DNA from: Kribbibacterium absianum | GTDB lineage: Bacteria > Actinomycetota > Coriobacteriia > Coriobacteriales > Atopobiaceae | NCBI RefSeq assembly: GCF_030067705.1 | Contig: NZ_JASJEX010000001.1 | Location: 1 to 64,000 of the forward strand | Length of the DNA: 64,000 bases | Direction of reading: 5' to 3' | In this document: piece by piece, positions 7,728-13,023 of the stretch | How positions within the stretch are numbered: position 1 is the stretch's first letter | Layout of the letters: each line of letters begins with the position of its first letter | Position numbers and translations under genes: made by a program | Notes under the pieces: model-generated | Database searches by the model: none | What the model saw: the letters and a program-made list of their open reading frames with translations, nothing else | What the model was told of the DNA's origin: nothing

Positions 7728-7862
7728 ACGTTTCTTGTCAATACGTGCAGGGCTCGCGATGGGCGGGGCTCCATGGTTTGCTGGGGAGTCCTCCGGGGTA
7801 GCATCAAACGTGTCTGAAAGAGCGGGCGCATCCCGCGCCCCATGAGAGAAGGGACGTCTCCG

Positions 7863-8258
7863 ATGGCTGACGTCAAGTTCTGGTACTGCACCCACTGTGG
7901 CAACCTTTTCTACACCGTCCAGGACGGCGGCGTGAACCCCGTCTGCTGCGGCGAGCCGATGGTTCTTCTGGAGGCCAACTCCACCGACGCCGCCGGCGAG
8001 AAGCACGTGCCGGTCGTCACCAACGACGGGGAGCGCATCGAGGTCCACGTGGGCGAGATCGACCACCCGATGCTCGACGAGCACTCTATCAAGTGGGTCG
8101 CGGTCGTGGCCGACAACGGCGACGTGCAGATCCGCTACCTGCGTCCGGGCATGGCCCCCAACGTCGTGTTCTCGAGCCGCGACATCACCTGCGGCACCGC
8201 GTACGCCTACTGCGACCTGCACGGTCTCTGGAAGACGGACTTCTGCTTCGCCGAGTAG
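7863..8258 (+). CDS. dfx: Desulfoferrodoxin (superoxide reductase, two-iron type)
   Basis: A 131-residue protein with both iron centres intact. Centre I, the desulforedoxin-like Fe(Cys)4 site, is formed by Cys9, Cys12, Cys28 and Cys29. Centre II, the catalytic Fe(His)4Cys site, has His48, His68, His74, Cys117 and His120, with the Glu46-Lys47 pair before His48 that is conserved near the active site. The enzyme reduces superoxide to hydrogen peroxide in the cytoplasm without releasing oxygen, the usual defence of strict anaerobes. The start is fixed by the family N-terminus and an AGAAGGGACG ribosome site. It stands alone, with no rubredoxin gene next to it. Confidence 0.95.
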   Translation: MADVKFWYCTHCGNLFYTVQDGGVNPVCCGEPMVLLEANSTDAAGEKHVPVVTNDGERIEVHVGEIDHPMLDEHSIKWVAVVADNGDVQIRYLRPGMAPNVVFSSRDITCGTAYAYCDLHGLWKTDFCFAE

Positions 8259-8463
8259 CGCACGCTCCCGGTCGACTCGAGGCGCCCTTGGCCCCACGCG
8301 GGTCGGGGGCGCTTGCCATATCCCGGGACGTATCGACTGAGCTGGGTTTTTGTCGTTCGTCGGGGCATTGGGCCTTTCTCGGGCGTCCTGCGGTCGACCC
8401 ACCTATCCTGAAGGCGAAAGCGTGGGCCCGGTGCCCAAGAGACCCCAAGAGAGGAGTCCTCGT

Positions 8464-10260
8464 TTGAAGATCGCGCTCGTGCAGATGAACTCGACGATGG
8501 GTCACTTCGACGGCACGCGGGAGCGCGTGCTGGCCCACGACCGCGCCTTCGCGCGACAGGGGGCCGAGCTTGCCGTGTACCCGTCCACGGTCGTCACGGG
8601 CTACGATCCCCAGGCGCTCCTCACCGAGCCGGGCTTCCAAGCGGACATCGCCACAATGCTCGAGCAGTTGGCCAACGAGTGCACGGTCCCGACGCTCCTG
8701 CCCTTCACGTTCGAGTTGGCCGGCGAGCCGGTGTTCGAGGTCGCCTACCTGAGCGAGGGGTCGGTCGTGCCGCTGCGCATGGCGTCGATCCTGGCGTCGC
8801 TGGGAAGCCTCGGGACGGCCCCTGTGGGGGATGCCCCCATTCAGTTCTCGCTCGGCGACGTGGACTTTGGCATCGCCTTCGACCTCACCATGCTCGATGC
8901 CTACGCCTCGGGCTCGCAGAACGCCGACGTCGTGATCTACCTGCCCTTTGACGGCTACAACACCGACGACGAGGCCAGCGCGATGGCCCACGGCGTCGGT
9001 GACGGCTTCTACCTCAAGGAGGCGGCCGAGGCCAACGCGTGGCTCGTGGCCGTGAACGGCGTGGGCGCCCAGGACCAGATCGTGTTCTCGGGCTCCTCGT
9101 TCGTGCTGGCGCCGTGGGGAGAGCTCGCCTGCGTGCTGCCGGCCTTCGAGGAGGTCGCCCGGGTGGTGGACGTGGATCCCCTCTCGGAGGGGCCGCTGCG
9201 CTCGCCACTGGCGCCTCCGGTGTACAACCGCACCCAGTTCCTGTGGAGCGCGCTCACGCTGGCGACCCATGACTTCGCGGTCAAGCAGGGCATGGGTGGC
9301 GTCGGCGTCCTCATGACCGGCGACCTCATGAGCTCTGCGGCCGCGGCGCTCGCCGTGGACGCGCTCGGGCCAACGCGGGTGCACGGCGTCGTCGCGCCGG
9401 TGCTCGGCGCCAAGGAGGCGGCCGATGCCAAGCGGCTCGCCCAGAACCTCCGTATCCAGGTGACCGAGATCGCGGGCGAGGAGCTCGACGCGGCGGCGAA
9501 CGCGCTCGGCCTGACCTATCAGGCTGCTGCCCTCTCGTTGGCGCGGATCCGCGCCAACGCGCTGTTCCGCGCGAAGGGCTACCTGAGCCTGTCCGGGGTC
9601 GACAAGACCGCGCTCGCGGTGGGCCAGGACTTCGACGCCTATGCCTCCTGCGACTTCGCGCCCTTCTCGGACGTGTACCGGACCGACCTGTTGGCGCTCG
9701 TCTCCAACCGCAACCTCAAGAGCCCCGTGGTGCCGCGCACGGTGCTGTCCCGCGTCGAGGTTCCCCGCAACCTGCGGCTGGAGACCAGGTTGCGCTCGGA
9801 CGCCCTGATTCTCTCGGACCTCGATTCCATTCTCTTGCGGCACGTGGAGCGGGGTGAGACGCTCTCGGAGCTCGTCCGCGACGGCTGCGACGAGATGCTC
9901 GCCCAGTTCATCGTCGGCCGCTACGATGCCTCGGAACTCGTGCGGCGCAGCTGCCCGGTGGGGCCGGTGGTCTCGGACCGCTCGCTGCTCGAGAACCGCC
10001 TGCCCATCTGTTGCGCGTGGCACGACCACGTGCGGGAGGACGTCGTCGCGTCCGACAGCTCCGAGCCGGCGGCGCTCTATGGCCTCGACGAGCTCATGGA
10101 GCGCTTCGCGCAGGTCACGGGCACGGCCCCCGGTGCGATCGAGCCTGCCGTGGGGGGCCAGACAGACATTCCAGGGTTCCTTCGGGACTTTGCCTCTGCT
10201 GGCGGCTTCTCTGCAGAAGGCGACGACGTCTGGGGCTCGGGCCTGTTCAGCAAGAACTGA
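8464..10260 (+). CDS. NAD synthetase (NadE)-like protein, probable pseudoenzyme
   Basis: A 598-residue protein with the two-domain plan of glutamine-dependent NAD synthetase: a nitrilase-type domain (about 1-260) and an adenine-nucleotide alpha-hydrolase domain (about 265-580). Homology is clear from VNGVGAQDQIVFSGSSFV and AAALAVDALGPTRVHGV. However, the active sites are missing. The nitrilase Glu (FPE in active enzymes) is Ser41, the nucleophilic Cys is Phe139, the lysine segment is lost, and the ATP loop SGGIDS reads TGDLMS (about 286-291). The later TTGNKSE motif is also gone. Starts at TTG after GAGGAG. An intact frame with lost chemistry suggests a structural or regulatory role rather than decay; the function is unknown. 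It precedes ruvC, separated by a LexA-type box. Confidence 0.75.
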   Translation: MKIALVQMNSTMGHFDGTRERVLAHDRAFARQGAELAVYPSTVVTGYDPQALLTEPGFQADIATMLEQLANECTVPTLLPFTFELAGEPVFEVAYLSEGSVVPLRMASILASLGSLGTAPVGDAPIQFSLGDVDFGIAFDLTMLDAYASGSQNADVVIYLPFDGYNTDDEASAMAHGVGDGFYLKEAAEANAWLVAVNGVGAQDQIVFSGSSFVLAPWGELACVLPAFEEVARVVDVDPLSEGPLRSPLAPPVYNRTQFLWSALTLATHDFAVKQGMGGVGVLMTGDLMSSAAAALAVDALGPTRVHGVVAPVLGAKEAADAKRLAQNLRIQVTEIAGEELDAAANALGLTYQAAALSLARIRANALFRAKGYLSLSGVDKTALAVGQDFDAYASCDFAPFSDVYRTDLLALVSNRNLKSPVVPRTVLSRVEVPRNLRLETRLRSDALILSDLDSILLRHVERGETLSELVRDGCDEMLAQFIVGRYDASELVRRSCPVGPVVSDRSLLENRLPICCAWHDHVREDVVASDSSEPAALYGLDELMERFAQVTGTAPGAIEPAVGGQTDIPGFLRDFASAGGFSAEGDDVWGSGLFSKN

Positions 10261-10302
10261 GGGGGTTTTCTCCCGGCGCGTCTGCTATCCTGTTCTCGTT
10301 GA

Positions 10303-10316
10303 CGAACGTGTGTTCT
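10303..10316 (+). promoter_or_regulatory. LexA (SOS) box upstream of ruvCAB
   Basis: CGAACGTGTGTTCT fits the Gram-positive SOS box CGAACnnnnGTTC. It lies 22 bases before the ruvC start, the expected place for damage-inducible control of Holliday junction resolution. Confidence 0.75.
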
Positions 10317-10337
10317 TTGTGACGCGAACGGAGGGGC

Positions 10338-10856
10338 ATGGTCATTCTCGGCATCGACCCGGGCCTGGCGAACACGGGCTGGGGCGTCGTGGAGACGCGG
10401 GGGTCCCTCTGCCGCGCCCGAGCCTACGGCAACATCTCCACCGGGGCGGACGAGCCGCTCGACCTCCGGCTTCGGGCCATCTATGACGGCCTGGCCGAGG
10501 CCATCGAGCGGTACCGGCCCACGGACGTCGCCGTGGAGAAGATCTTCTTCGGCCAGAACACGAAGTCGGCCATCGCCACCGCCCATGCCCGGGGCGCGGC
10601 CCTCGTGGCCTGCGCGCACGCTGGGGCGGCCGTGGGCGAGTACACGCCGATGCAGATCAAGCAGGCGGTGGTGGGCACGGGAGCGGCCGACAAGCACCAG
10701 GTCACCTATATGGTGCGGCGCCTGTTGGCGCTCGACCACGACCCGAGGCCCGACCACTGCGCGGACGCACTCGCGGCGGCCGTGTGCCATGCGAACCTGA
10801 CGCGCACCCAGGCGATGGTGGGGAGCGCGGCCTCGACCCGAGGGAGGACGGCATGA
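10338..10856 (+). CDS. ruvC: Holliday junction endonuclease RuvC
   Basis: A 172-residue protein of normal length. It cuts four-way junctions symmetrically during recombination and repair, as the nuclease of the RuvABC resolvasome. The RNase-H-like acidic residues are visible: Asp7 in GIDPGL, Glu67 in VEKIFF, and the HCADALA cluster with His140 and Asp143, the arrangement of Thermus RuvC. The stop overlaps the ruvA start (ATGA), so ruvC, ruvA and ruvB form one translationally coupled operon, with a LexA box just upstream. The start follows CGGAGGGG. Confidence 0.97.
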   Translation: MVILGIDPGLANTGWGVVETRGSLCRARAYGNISTGADEPLDLRLRAIYDGLAEAIERYRPTDVAVEKIFFGQNTKSAIATAHARGAALVACAHAGAAVGEYTPMQIKQAVVGTGAADKHQVTYMVRRLLALDHDPRPDHCADALAAAVCHANLTRTQAMVGSAASTRGRTA

Positions 10857-11479
10857 TCGTCCAATTGACCGGCACGCTGGTGGAGACCGCCGGCGCCTCT
10901 GTGGTGCTCGATGTGAGCGGCGTCGGCTACGAGCTGGGGGTCTCCCACGCGACGTTGGCCGACCTGCCCGCGCGGGGCACCCCGGGCGTGACGCTGCTCG
11001 TGCGGATGCGGGTGACGGACGCCGGCCCCGCGCTCTACGGGTTCTCCACCCGTGAGGAGCGCACGCTCTTCGACCGTCTCGTCCAAGTGAGCGGGGTCGG
11101 CCCCAAGATGGCCCTCTCGGTGCTCTCGAGCTTCCGCCCGCGCCAGCTGGCCGAGGTGGTGGCGACCGGCGACCTGCAGCGGCTCACGTCCGTGCCGGGC
11201 GTGGGCAAGAAGTCGGCGTCCCGGCTCCTGGTGGAGCTGGAGGGCATCTTCTCCAAGGACCCGGGGCTCAAGAGCCTCGCCGCCAGCGCGACGCTCGACC
11301 TGGACGGCCCTGCGCCTGCCGGCCCCGCGCCGTCGGTGCTGGCCGACGTGGTGGACGGCCTACTCTCGATGGGGTTCTCGCCTCAGGAGGCCGAGCTCGC
11401 ATGCGAGGGGCTCGACGAGTCGCTGTCCGTTGAGCAGGCGCTCGGCCAGGCGCTCAAGCGCTTGGGAGGCAGGTCATGA
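10853..11479 (+). CDS. ruvA: Holliday junction DNA-binding subunit RuvA
   Basis: A 208-residue protein: N-terminal OB fold ([11 protein letters not shown]..), two helix-hairpin-helix motifs ([10 protein letters not shown] near residue 80 and [12 protein letters not shown] near 117) that grip the junction, and a C-terminal UBA-like domain ([12 protein letters not shown]) that contacts RuvB. It tetramerises on the four-way junction and loads the RuvB motor. Start and stop both overlap neighbours by 4 bases. Confidence 0.97.
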
Positions 11480-12540
11480 GGTGGGAGGCCGACGACAACC
11501 GCGACCTTTTCGGCGACACACGGCCGGACCCGGTGGCGCCCACGGCCCGTGCGGTCACGCCCGAGCTCACGGCGGACGACCTGGACCAGGAGCGCAACCT
11601 GCGTCCGCAGACGCTCGCGGACTATTGCGGGCAGGCACGCGTGCGCGAGAACCTGCGCGTGCTCATCGATGCCGCGAAGAGCCGGCACGAGCCCTTGGAT
11701 CATGTGCTGTTCTCGGGCCCCCCGGGTCTCGGGAAGACCACGCTCGCCGCCATCGTGGCCAACGAGATGGGCACGTCGATGCACGCCACCTCGGGCCCGG
11801 CCATCGAGCGCGCCGGCGACCTCGCGGCGGTGCTCACGAACCTCGAGGAGGGCGACGTCCTCTTCATCGACGAGATTCACCGGCTCAACCACAACATCGA
11901 GGAAGTGCTCTACCCGGCGATGGAGGACTTCTTCTTGGACATCGTGATCGGCAAGGGCCCCGCCGCGCGCTCCATTCGGCTGGACGTGCCCCGGTTCACG
12001 CTCGTGGGCGCCACGACGCGCACCGGTCTTTTGACGGGGCCGCTGCGCGACCGCTTCGGCATCTCGTACCGGCTCGACTTCTACCGCGTGGAGGAGCTGG
12101 CCCAGATCGTGCTCAGGAGCGCCGGGATCCTCGGCGTGGCCATCGACGAGGGCGGCGCGATGGAGATCGCGAGCCGCAGCCGCGGCACGCCGCGCCTGGC
12201 GAACCGCCTGCTCAAGCGCGTGCGCGACTACGCCCAGGTCAAGGCCGAGGGCGACGTCACGTGGCAGGTGGCGGCGGAGGCCCTGTCGTTCTTCGAGATC
12301 GACGAGCTGGGCCTCGATTGGATGGACCAGAAGGTGCTCGGCGCCCTCTGCCGCACGTTCCGCGGGCGCCCGGTGGGCCTTTCGACCTTGTCGAGCGCCG
12401 TGGGCGAGGACGCGTCCACTCTGGAGGATGTATACGAGCCCTTCCTGCTCCAGCAGGGCCTGATCGTGCGGACGCCGCAAGGGCGCAAGGCGACGCTGGC
12501 CGCGTTCGAGCATCTGGGTATCCCCTTTGTGGGCGACTGA
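11476..12540 (+). CDS. ruvB: Holliday junction branch-migration ATPase RuvB
   Basis: A 354-residue AAA+ motor. Walker [11 protein letters not shown] (about 80-89), Walker B with DEIH (about 131-134), sensor 1 in GATTRTGLL, the arginine-finger region GPLRDRFG, and a C-terminal winged helix. Hexamers pump DNA through the RuvA-held junction. It is the last gene of ruvCAB; its ATG overlaps the ruvA stop. Confidence 0.97.
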
Positions 12541-12570
12541 ACCACTGACGACCGCGCGGGAGGCTGCGCC

Positions 12571-13023
12571 ATGATTCAAAAGGACTATCTGAGCAAGATC
12601 ATCGAGTCGTTCAACAAGCAGGTGAACGTCACGCTCAAGGACGCGCTCGTGGTGCGCTCCGAGGAGGGCATCCGTGCGACCGAGGAGGCGGTGGGCGAGC
12701 TGCTCGAGCTGGACGCGGCCACCGTCCTTGCGCTGACGCCGGAGTCCTTCCTGACCATGGTGCAGCTGAGCGGCACCGGCGACGTGGTTGGGGACTACCT
12801 CGCCTACGCCTTGGACGGCCTGGCCGACGCCTACCTGCTCCAGCTGAACGGGTCGATGAGCGAGGAGCAGCGGGCCGAGGTGCGCGCCGTCGCCAAGTTG
12901 CGGAGAGCGCAGGCCCGCGCCGTCGCCCTGGCCTTTGGCATCGACCGCAGCGGGGTGCCGGAGCCGTTCCGGGAGCTGGACCGCGAGGTCCAGCGGGCAC
13001 GCAGCGAGGCCGGTGCCCGCTAG
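12571..13023 (+). CDS. Conserved hypothetical helical protein (DUF6483-like)
   Basis: A 150-residue soluble, mainly helical protein. The N-terminus MIQKDYLSKIIESFNKQV resembles a small family of unknown function found in Firmicutes and Actinobacteria (DUF6483 is my best guess, from memory). No membrane segment, signal peptide or catalytic motif is evident; the C-terminus is rich in Arg and Glu. It starts 30 bases after ruvB with a GGGAGG ribosome site and may be co-transcribed with ruvCAB, but nothing in the sequence links it to repair. Confidence 0.6.
   Translation: MIQKDYLSKIIESFNKQVNVTLKDALVVRSEEGIRATEEAVGELLELDAATVLALTPESFLTMVQLSGTGDVVGDYLAYALDGLADAYLLQLNGSMSEEQRAEVRAVAKLRRAQARAVALAFGIDRSGVPEPFRELDREVQRARSEAGAR

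Follow-up and report, generated by a model that had tools for sequence, protein, structure and literature searches.

A NadE-derived pseudoenzyme with a conserved FSxN C terminus is maintained under selection in Atopobiaceae

The gene that precedes ruvCAB in Kribbibacterium absianum encodes a real, conserved pseudoenzyme derived from the NAD synthetase NadE, and it is under selection. The gene lies in the first 64,000 nucleotides of contig NZ_JASJEX010000001.1 (assembly GCF_030067705.1), a stretch called the window here. We consider it probable that the protein is a former NAD synthetase whose place was taken by a different NadE and which survives as an adaptor without catalysis, with a docking tail. 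Clade-wide loss of catalytic residues, purifying selection and an intact enzyme elsewhere in the genome, three of the traits by which a functional pseudoenzyme is recognized, were found. Metabolic pseudoenzymes in general retain an enzyme fold without the catalytic residues and are under selection, as is the case here. The window protein differs from them in that it appears to be what is left of an essential enzyme after one from another subfamily took its place, and in that a terminal motif is among its most conserved parts. Our literature searches returned no papers on this pseudoenzyme.

The reading frame from 8464 to 10260 is open, ends with TGA and has GAGGAG at 8451-8456 ahead of the TTG start, in agreement with the initial annotation of an uninterrupted frame of almost 600 codons (598 amino acids). 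Pfam matched CN_hydrolase (49.6 bits) and then NAD_synthase (42.8 bits), both above the gathering scores, while the NCBIfam models NF010588 (172.7 bits, cut-off 479) and TIGR00552 (25.0 bits, cut-off 63.65) gave matches well short of their cut-offs. By sequence, the closest solved proteins are the NAD synthetases 5kha, 4f4h, and 3n05. The AlphaFold2 model of the window protein has a pLDDT of 89.9, and its residues 1-523 match 3n05 best in the PDB, with a Z of 34.5 and an rmsd of 2.5 over 477 aligned residues at 28% identity. Domain order, fold and sequence homology are therefore those of the short two-domain glutamine-dependent NAD synthetases (NF010588/PRK13981; 3n05, 5kha, 4f4h). In contrast to these, the window protein lacks catalytic residues at both sites, falls below the curated cut-offs, and is extended at the C terminus by a segment that closes with the conserved FSxN. 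Pfam, fold, and residues thus bear out the earlier description of an intact two-domain NadE homologue with both active sites erased.

Table 1. Positions in the window of the pseudoenzyme gene, its parts and its neighbors.
Feature	Coordinates	Strand	Remarks
Desulfoferrodoxin (superoxide reductase family), upstream neighbor	7863..8258	+	PF01880 and PF06397
NadE-derived pseudoenzyme CDS	8464..10260	+	598 aa, TTG start; homologues in 134/140 genomes of the family
Nitrilase (glutaminase)-like domain	8467..9177	+	residues 2-238; PF00795 stretch; catalytic triad gone
Ser41 at the catalytic Glu position	8584..8586	+	alignment column
NAD-synthetase-like domain	9280..9945	+	residues 273-494; PF02540 stretch; fold match to 3n05
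TGDLMS, eroded ATP loop	9316..9333	+	residues 285-290; SGGxDS in intact relatives
Asp-Lys-Thr 380-382, rewritten TGNKSE motif	9601..9609	+	Lys381 invariant
Asp403-Val-Tyr-Arg406	9670..9681	+	xDVYK in intact relatives; Lys to Arg406
C-terminal extension	10021..10257	+	residues 520-598; low model confidence; short helices 541-552 and 569-578
Terminal Phe-Ser-Lys-Asn-COOH (FSxN tail)	10246..10257	+	conserved end
ruvC, downstream neighbor	10338..10856	+	PF02075
ruvA	10850..11479	+	RuvA_N, HHH_5, RuvA_C
ruvB	11476..12540	+	RuvB_N, RuvB_C

Residues of the two active sites were read from aligned copies of Atopobiaceae, the family of the window (f1, 98 copies), of a second family (f10, 20 copies), and of 19 homologues from other families. 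We take SGGxDS to be the ATP loop and TGNKSE, GD, and DVxK to hold Mg/ATP residues. At the glutaminase site, Glu was not among the residues listed for the Ser41 column in any of the 98 + 20 + 19 copies. The column of the catalytic Cys falls on Phe139 or Asp140, varying with the alignment; since there is no Cys in residues 74-221 of the window protein, the catalytic Cys is absent under either alignment. The initial assignment of the nitrilase Glu to Ser41 therefore stands, and that of the Cys to Phe139 holds as to its absence but not as to its exact position. The same lack of Cys rules out that the catalytic residues of the window protein have merely shifted. The Glu-Lys-Cys triad of a glutaminase was not found in the window protein, with the Lys position judged by inspecting the alignment. 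A Cys does occur within columns 137-142 in 10 of the 98 f1 copies, none of which has the Glu.

At the synthetase site, the loop at residues 285-290 reads TGDLMS instead of SGGIDS, as first noted. SGGxDS was found in 0/118 of the aligned f1 and f10 copies, none of the 98 f1 copies has either it or the glutaminase Glu, and the loop differs between the two families. The initial annotation also held that the TTGNKSE segment is lost, which was not confirmed: its counterpart, LSGVDKTALAVG (residues 375-387), aligns without a gap and is rewritten. The TGNKSE stretch reads GVDKTA in the window protein, with the Asn and Glu gone, and has the general form xxDKT, with the Lys retained. This Lys381 is invariant in all 118 f1 and f10 copies as well as in 19 synthetase-intact relatives, and Asp403 is invariant in the 118 dead copies. 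Ser285, Gly287, Asp289, Glu383, Asp393, and Lys406 are each present in 19/19 of the intact relatives and in few or none of the f1 and f10 copies; in the window protein, Glu383 is replaced by Ala, Asp393 by Tyr, and Lys406 by Arg. Some 35 columns without any variation among the 19 intact relatives are not kept in f1 and f10. Judged from these alignments, catalytic residues are lost at both sites of the window protein.

The gene is widespread in Atopobiaceae, a family of gut bacteria. Among 140 f1 genomes searched, 134 have a homologue (100/101 among those at least 90% complete), and the pseudoenzyme is kept in 32 of 35 genera. The 101 f1 loci studied are that of the window and 100 fetched from 99 genomes (G136 twice); the locus of G017 was read separately, and 33 further f1 genomes with a match lie outside the fetched set. 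For f10, 20 of the 47 genomes with a match were fetched, and the doubly dead protein was present in 20/20 loci read. Another 20 loci were fetched from other families, and the set searched included three f3 genomes. Column counts omit one locus cut by a contig end (L052), two broken copies (L110 and L129), and a further cut one (L274). A scan of contigs with the single window protein as query gave no match. With the alignment as query, the same kind of scan gave 79 loci, mostly labeled Atopobiaceae, Olsenella, Thermophilibacter, Coriobacteriaceae or Coriobacteriales, and one weak haloarchaeal match.

Nei-Gojobori dN/dS, taken as a measure of selection, ranged from 0.028 to 0.277 across 13 f1 pairs and from 0.055 to 0.099 across 4 f10 pairs. 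The values for ruvC (0.009-0.176) were below those of the pseudoenzyme in 13/13 f1 pairs, so the pseudoenzyme is constrained, though less than ruvC. The frame is intact to its end in 99/101 f1 loci; of the two broken copies, L110 stops prematurely and L129 is truncated. The earlier suggestion that selection holds the protein is borne out by these values. In an alignment of 108 sequences, eight positions never vary, and three of these, Phe595, Ser596, and Asn598, lie in the tail.

A canonical NadE, whose presence elsewhere in the genome had been proposed as a check, was found on contig G000:C2. This long enzyme has 661 amino acids, scores 864 bits against NF002730 (cut-off 473), and carries the motifs PECC, EVCEDLW, SGGLDS, and GTGDLSE. 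It belongs to the long glutamine-dependent NAD synthetases (NF002730/PRK02628; Mycobacterium tuberculosis type), which have two domains as the window protein does. Unlike the window protein, it is a separate gene, on a different contig, with both active sites intact, and it is not the source of the pseudoenzyme. A survey of 197 genomes from the order placed the long NadE in 50/50 f1 and 47/47 f10 genomes versus 3/100 others (G183, G185, and G192), and these three gave only weak short-protein matches (E about 1e-4 to 1e-5). In a set of 30 genomes, most of the intact f3-f9 genomes had one strong NAD_synthase match, of 223-258 bits, the exceptions being G149 (163 bits) and G157 and G192 (none). 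In the f1 and f10 genomes of that set, the long NadE scored 94-108 bits and other NAD_synthase matches at most 46 bits. One f2 genome (G218) has two strong NAD_synthase matches, the second of 118.9 bits, and its synthetase site is still intact, so displacement need not end in erosion.

The nearest relatives in the tree are NadE proteins of families f2, f3, f4, f5, f6, f8, and f9, represented by 19 aligned homologues (L263-L273 and L275-L282). They share the dead glutaminase with the window protein (catalytic Glu in 0/19) but keep what it does not: SGGxDS, the Lys and Glu of NKSE, the Asp of GD, and the Lys of DVYK are present in 19/19. Both intact relatives tested passed TIGR00552 (L263, 217.5 bits; L277, 208.4 bits; cut-off 63.65). 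Since their glutaminase domain is dead, the NAD synthetases of these families should need free ammonia, and many Coriobacteriales seem to rely on such a NadE. In most of those genomes, the glutaminase-dead protein is apparently the only strong NadE. The f1 and f10 proteins form one clade (SH-aLRT 100), whose sister is the synthetase-intact f3 protein L263 (SH-aLRT 99). L263 shares the FSxN tail and a desulfoferrodoxin neighbor with the window locus; it is the only synthetase-intact relative known with this tail, and its assembly is fragmented.

The last residues of the pseudoenzyme are nearly fixed. FSxN-COOH ends the protein in 99/101 f1 and 20/20 f10 loci (119/121), the exceptions being the broken L110 and L129. 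The NadE fold is followed by 69-132 residues in f1, 96-125 in f10, 88 in f3, 34-38 in f5, and 4-24 in the remaining families. FSKN closes the synthetase-intact f3 protein L263, and a comparison of two f3 genomes gave 54% identity over the last 50 residues versus 27% over the synthetase part. The copy that has diverged most, found in G017, has 1085 residues, ends with PFSIN and precedes ruvC, and no Pfam model matched it. A long low-complexity insert of very acidic character accounts for the swollen size of this homologue (L324, 1663-4896). Eight synthetase-intact f5 proteins (L268, L272, L273, L275-L278, and L281) have a short end motif of their own whose last residue is Asn, for example NFLDN or DILEN.

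The tail serine is encoded by TCN in 116 and by AGC in 3 of 119 copies. Because both serine codon families are used, the constraint on FSxN appears to act at the protein level, and a DNA-level signal for ruvC is unlikely. The coding pattern F-S-[EKDN]-N-stop, which leaves out Q, L, I or V at the variable position, occurs once in the genome, in the pseudoenzyme gene; FSxN is thus not a tag on many proteins in this form. In the model built with 108 sequences, the last two blocks of ten residues had mean pLDDT values of 50 and 40, the lowest confidence of the protein, and the tail was not seen to dock on its own body. A pLDDT of 40 with 108 sequences would be expected if the segment becomes ordered only upon binding a partner, but it is also compatible with self-docking or mere disorder, which counts against a docking model. 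A fixed, unordered C terminus behind a linker of variable length would be typical of a short docking motif.

The position directly before ruvCAB, which had been remarked upon as curious, proved to be a conserved linkage, with ruvC adjacent downstream in 93/101 f1 loci. Desulfoferrodoxin is adjacent upstream in 75/101, and both are neighbors of the pseudoenzyme in 20/20 f10 loci read. About 2.2 kb separates the pseudoenzyme gene and ruvC in three f1 loci; a DUF4012 gene lies between the two in L102 (658-2727), and gaps of like size occur at L089 and L106. G004 and G009 have ruvC with no adjoining pseudoenzyme. G025, a 1.6 Mb genome on one contig that is 99% complete, has lost the pseudoenzyme, and neither ruvC nor a real ruvB was found in it. 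A promoter and terminator scan of 7800-12700 in the window gave no promoter-like site, and no terminator between the pseudoenzyme gene and ruvC. After ruvB, the window has a 150-residue ORF with no Pfam match (12571-13023).

We propose a stepwise history in which this synthetase became an adaptor. According to the residues of the relatives, the glutaminase of a two-domain NadE would have died in an ancestor shared by these Coriobacteriales families, with the synthetase intact. In the branch of f3, f10, and f1, the sequences read then show the protein lengthened at its C terminus by about 70-130 residues, with FSxN-COOH as the end. Both f10 and f1 have a complete long glutamine-dependent NadE as a separate gene, and the old synthetase site was probably erased once in their ancestor; co-occurrence and the tree carry this step, and the order of its two events is our reading. 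Since a separate long NadE is found in every sampled f1 and f10 genome, the old enzyme would have been displaced, lost catalysis, and been kept. The NadE distribution fits a course in which the long NadE first displaced the old enzyme and the synthetase site was lost afterwards, and both displacement and erosion have sequence evidence behind them. The flexible tail may dock its free C terminus onto a putative partner protein, and the protein would be kept because its folded body and tail carry a second function. The products RuvC and RuvAB are the best-linked candidate partner. It is possible, though we hold this only tentatively, that FSxN was a moonlighting tail on a working synthetase that outlived the replacement of this enzyme by a NadE from a different subfamily, giving rise to a new adaptor family in two bacterial families that might serve the Holliday-junction machinery encoded beside it. 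The faster evolution relative to ruvC (13/13 pairs) and the gene loss in G025 count against an adaptor, as do the lack of the gene beside ruvC in G004 and G009, the intact synthetase site of G218, and the fact that L263 is the sole synthetase-intact relative with the tail. "Another role" had been listed among the options at the outset, and it stands, now with the FSxN C terminus as a clue that the first reading did not have.

The conserved linkage raises the question of whether the protein is an accessory factor of RuvABC that docks via FSxN, a special case of the adaptor account that we regard as unlikely. Adjacency to ruvC in 93/101 f1 and 20/20 f10 loci, its being commoner in f1 than the desulfoferrodoxin linkage (75/101), and the joint absence of ruvC, ruvB, and pseudoenzyme in G025 speak for it. 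On the other hand, a single block deletion could explain the joint loss in G025, ruvC of G004 and G009 has no adjoining pseudoenzyme gene, and a shared promoter could be enough to keep the gene order. Moreover, in the f3 genome G141, the tailed protein and ruvC are on different contigs, so the tail would predate the ruvC linkage. It seems quite unlikely that the protein is a sensor whose former synthetase pocket still takes up a nucleotide or dinucleotide and whose tail passes on the signal. Gly286 (nearly always), Lys381, and Asp403 do remain, and the f1 copies have a new D-G-S/T-L loop in common, with Asp at 285 in 76/98. However, the six residues from Ser285 to Lys406 listed above survive in few or no copies, the loop differs between f1 and f10, and the Lys and Asp that are left may have a structural role. 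The nucleotide binding considered in the initial annotation is weakened accordingly by the loss of some 35 columns invariant in the intact relatives.

Regulation of the true NadE, the role named first in the initial annotation, would make the protein a dead regulatory or stabilizing subunit bound to the long enzyme, and we give this little likelihood. The two co-occur in 49/50 f1 and 47/47 f10 genomes sampled, and mixed assembly of this fold with NadE is conceivable in principle; but they belong to different subfamilies (NF002730 versus remnants of NF010588), and their genes are unlinked in the genome of the window. G025, G183, G185, and G192 have the long NadE without the pseudoenzyme, and, conversely, G141 has the tailed protein without a long NadE, which makes the long NadE unlikely as the partner and leaves the suggestion unsupported. 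There is a similarly low probability that the gene is a functionless, slowly decaying relic, open only since decay is recent in each lineage. Although evolution faster than that of ruvC, two broken copies (L110 and L129), and one clean loss (G025) are in line with decay, dN/dS is well below 1 in all 17 f1 and f10 pairs, 99/101 f1 and 20/20 f10 loci reach the FSxN end, 32/35 genera keep the gene, and three of the eight invariant positions are in the tail. Finally, the protein might be a PII target that keeps the regulatory surface of a dimeric NadE. PMC7196632 describes binding of PII to the dimeric glutamine-dependent NadE of other bacteria, and a PII gene is present in the genome of the window. 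PII was not found, however, in 7 of 10 f1 and f10 genomes searched (G018, G058, G022, G087, G051, G258, and G266), all carrying the pseudoenzyme, which contradicts PII as a general partner and makes this reading highly improbable.

If the displaced-enzyme account is right, the series from an essential enzyme to a non-enzyme would be an ordered one: glutaminase lost at the start, tail gained with the synthetase still intact, second NadE present, synthetase lost, and protein kept. It would also imply a protein-protein interaction that depends on a short C terminus and is testable in culturable bacteria of the Olsenella or Thermophilibacter type. Since NadE profiles match them, some of these pseudoenzyme genes could be mis-annotated as NAD synthase, which would mislead metabolic models.

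A possible second erosion of the synthetase site was seen by sequence in the f3 genome G149, where the gene looks split. One piece, at the end of contig C50, carries GLAGDLDSS, and the other, at the start of C60, has ACDKTARAL and terminates in GMPLFSKN; the two loci are L330 (2-1084) and L331 (3169-4428). An independent death of the synthetase in G149 was not upheld, the trees being compatible with one loss (minimum 1 change). G149 has a single-domain NadE that scores 163.9 bits versus a cut-off of 63.65.
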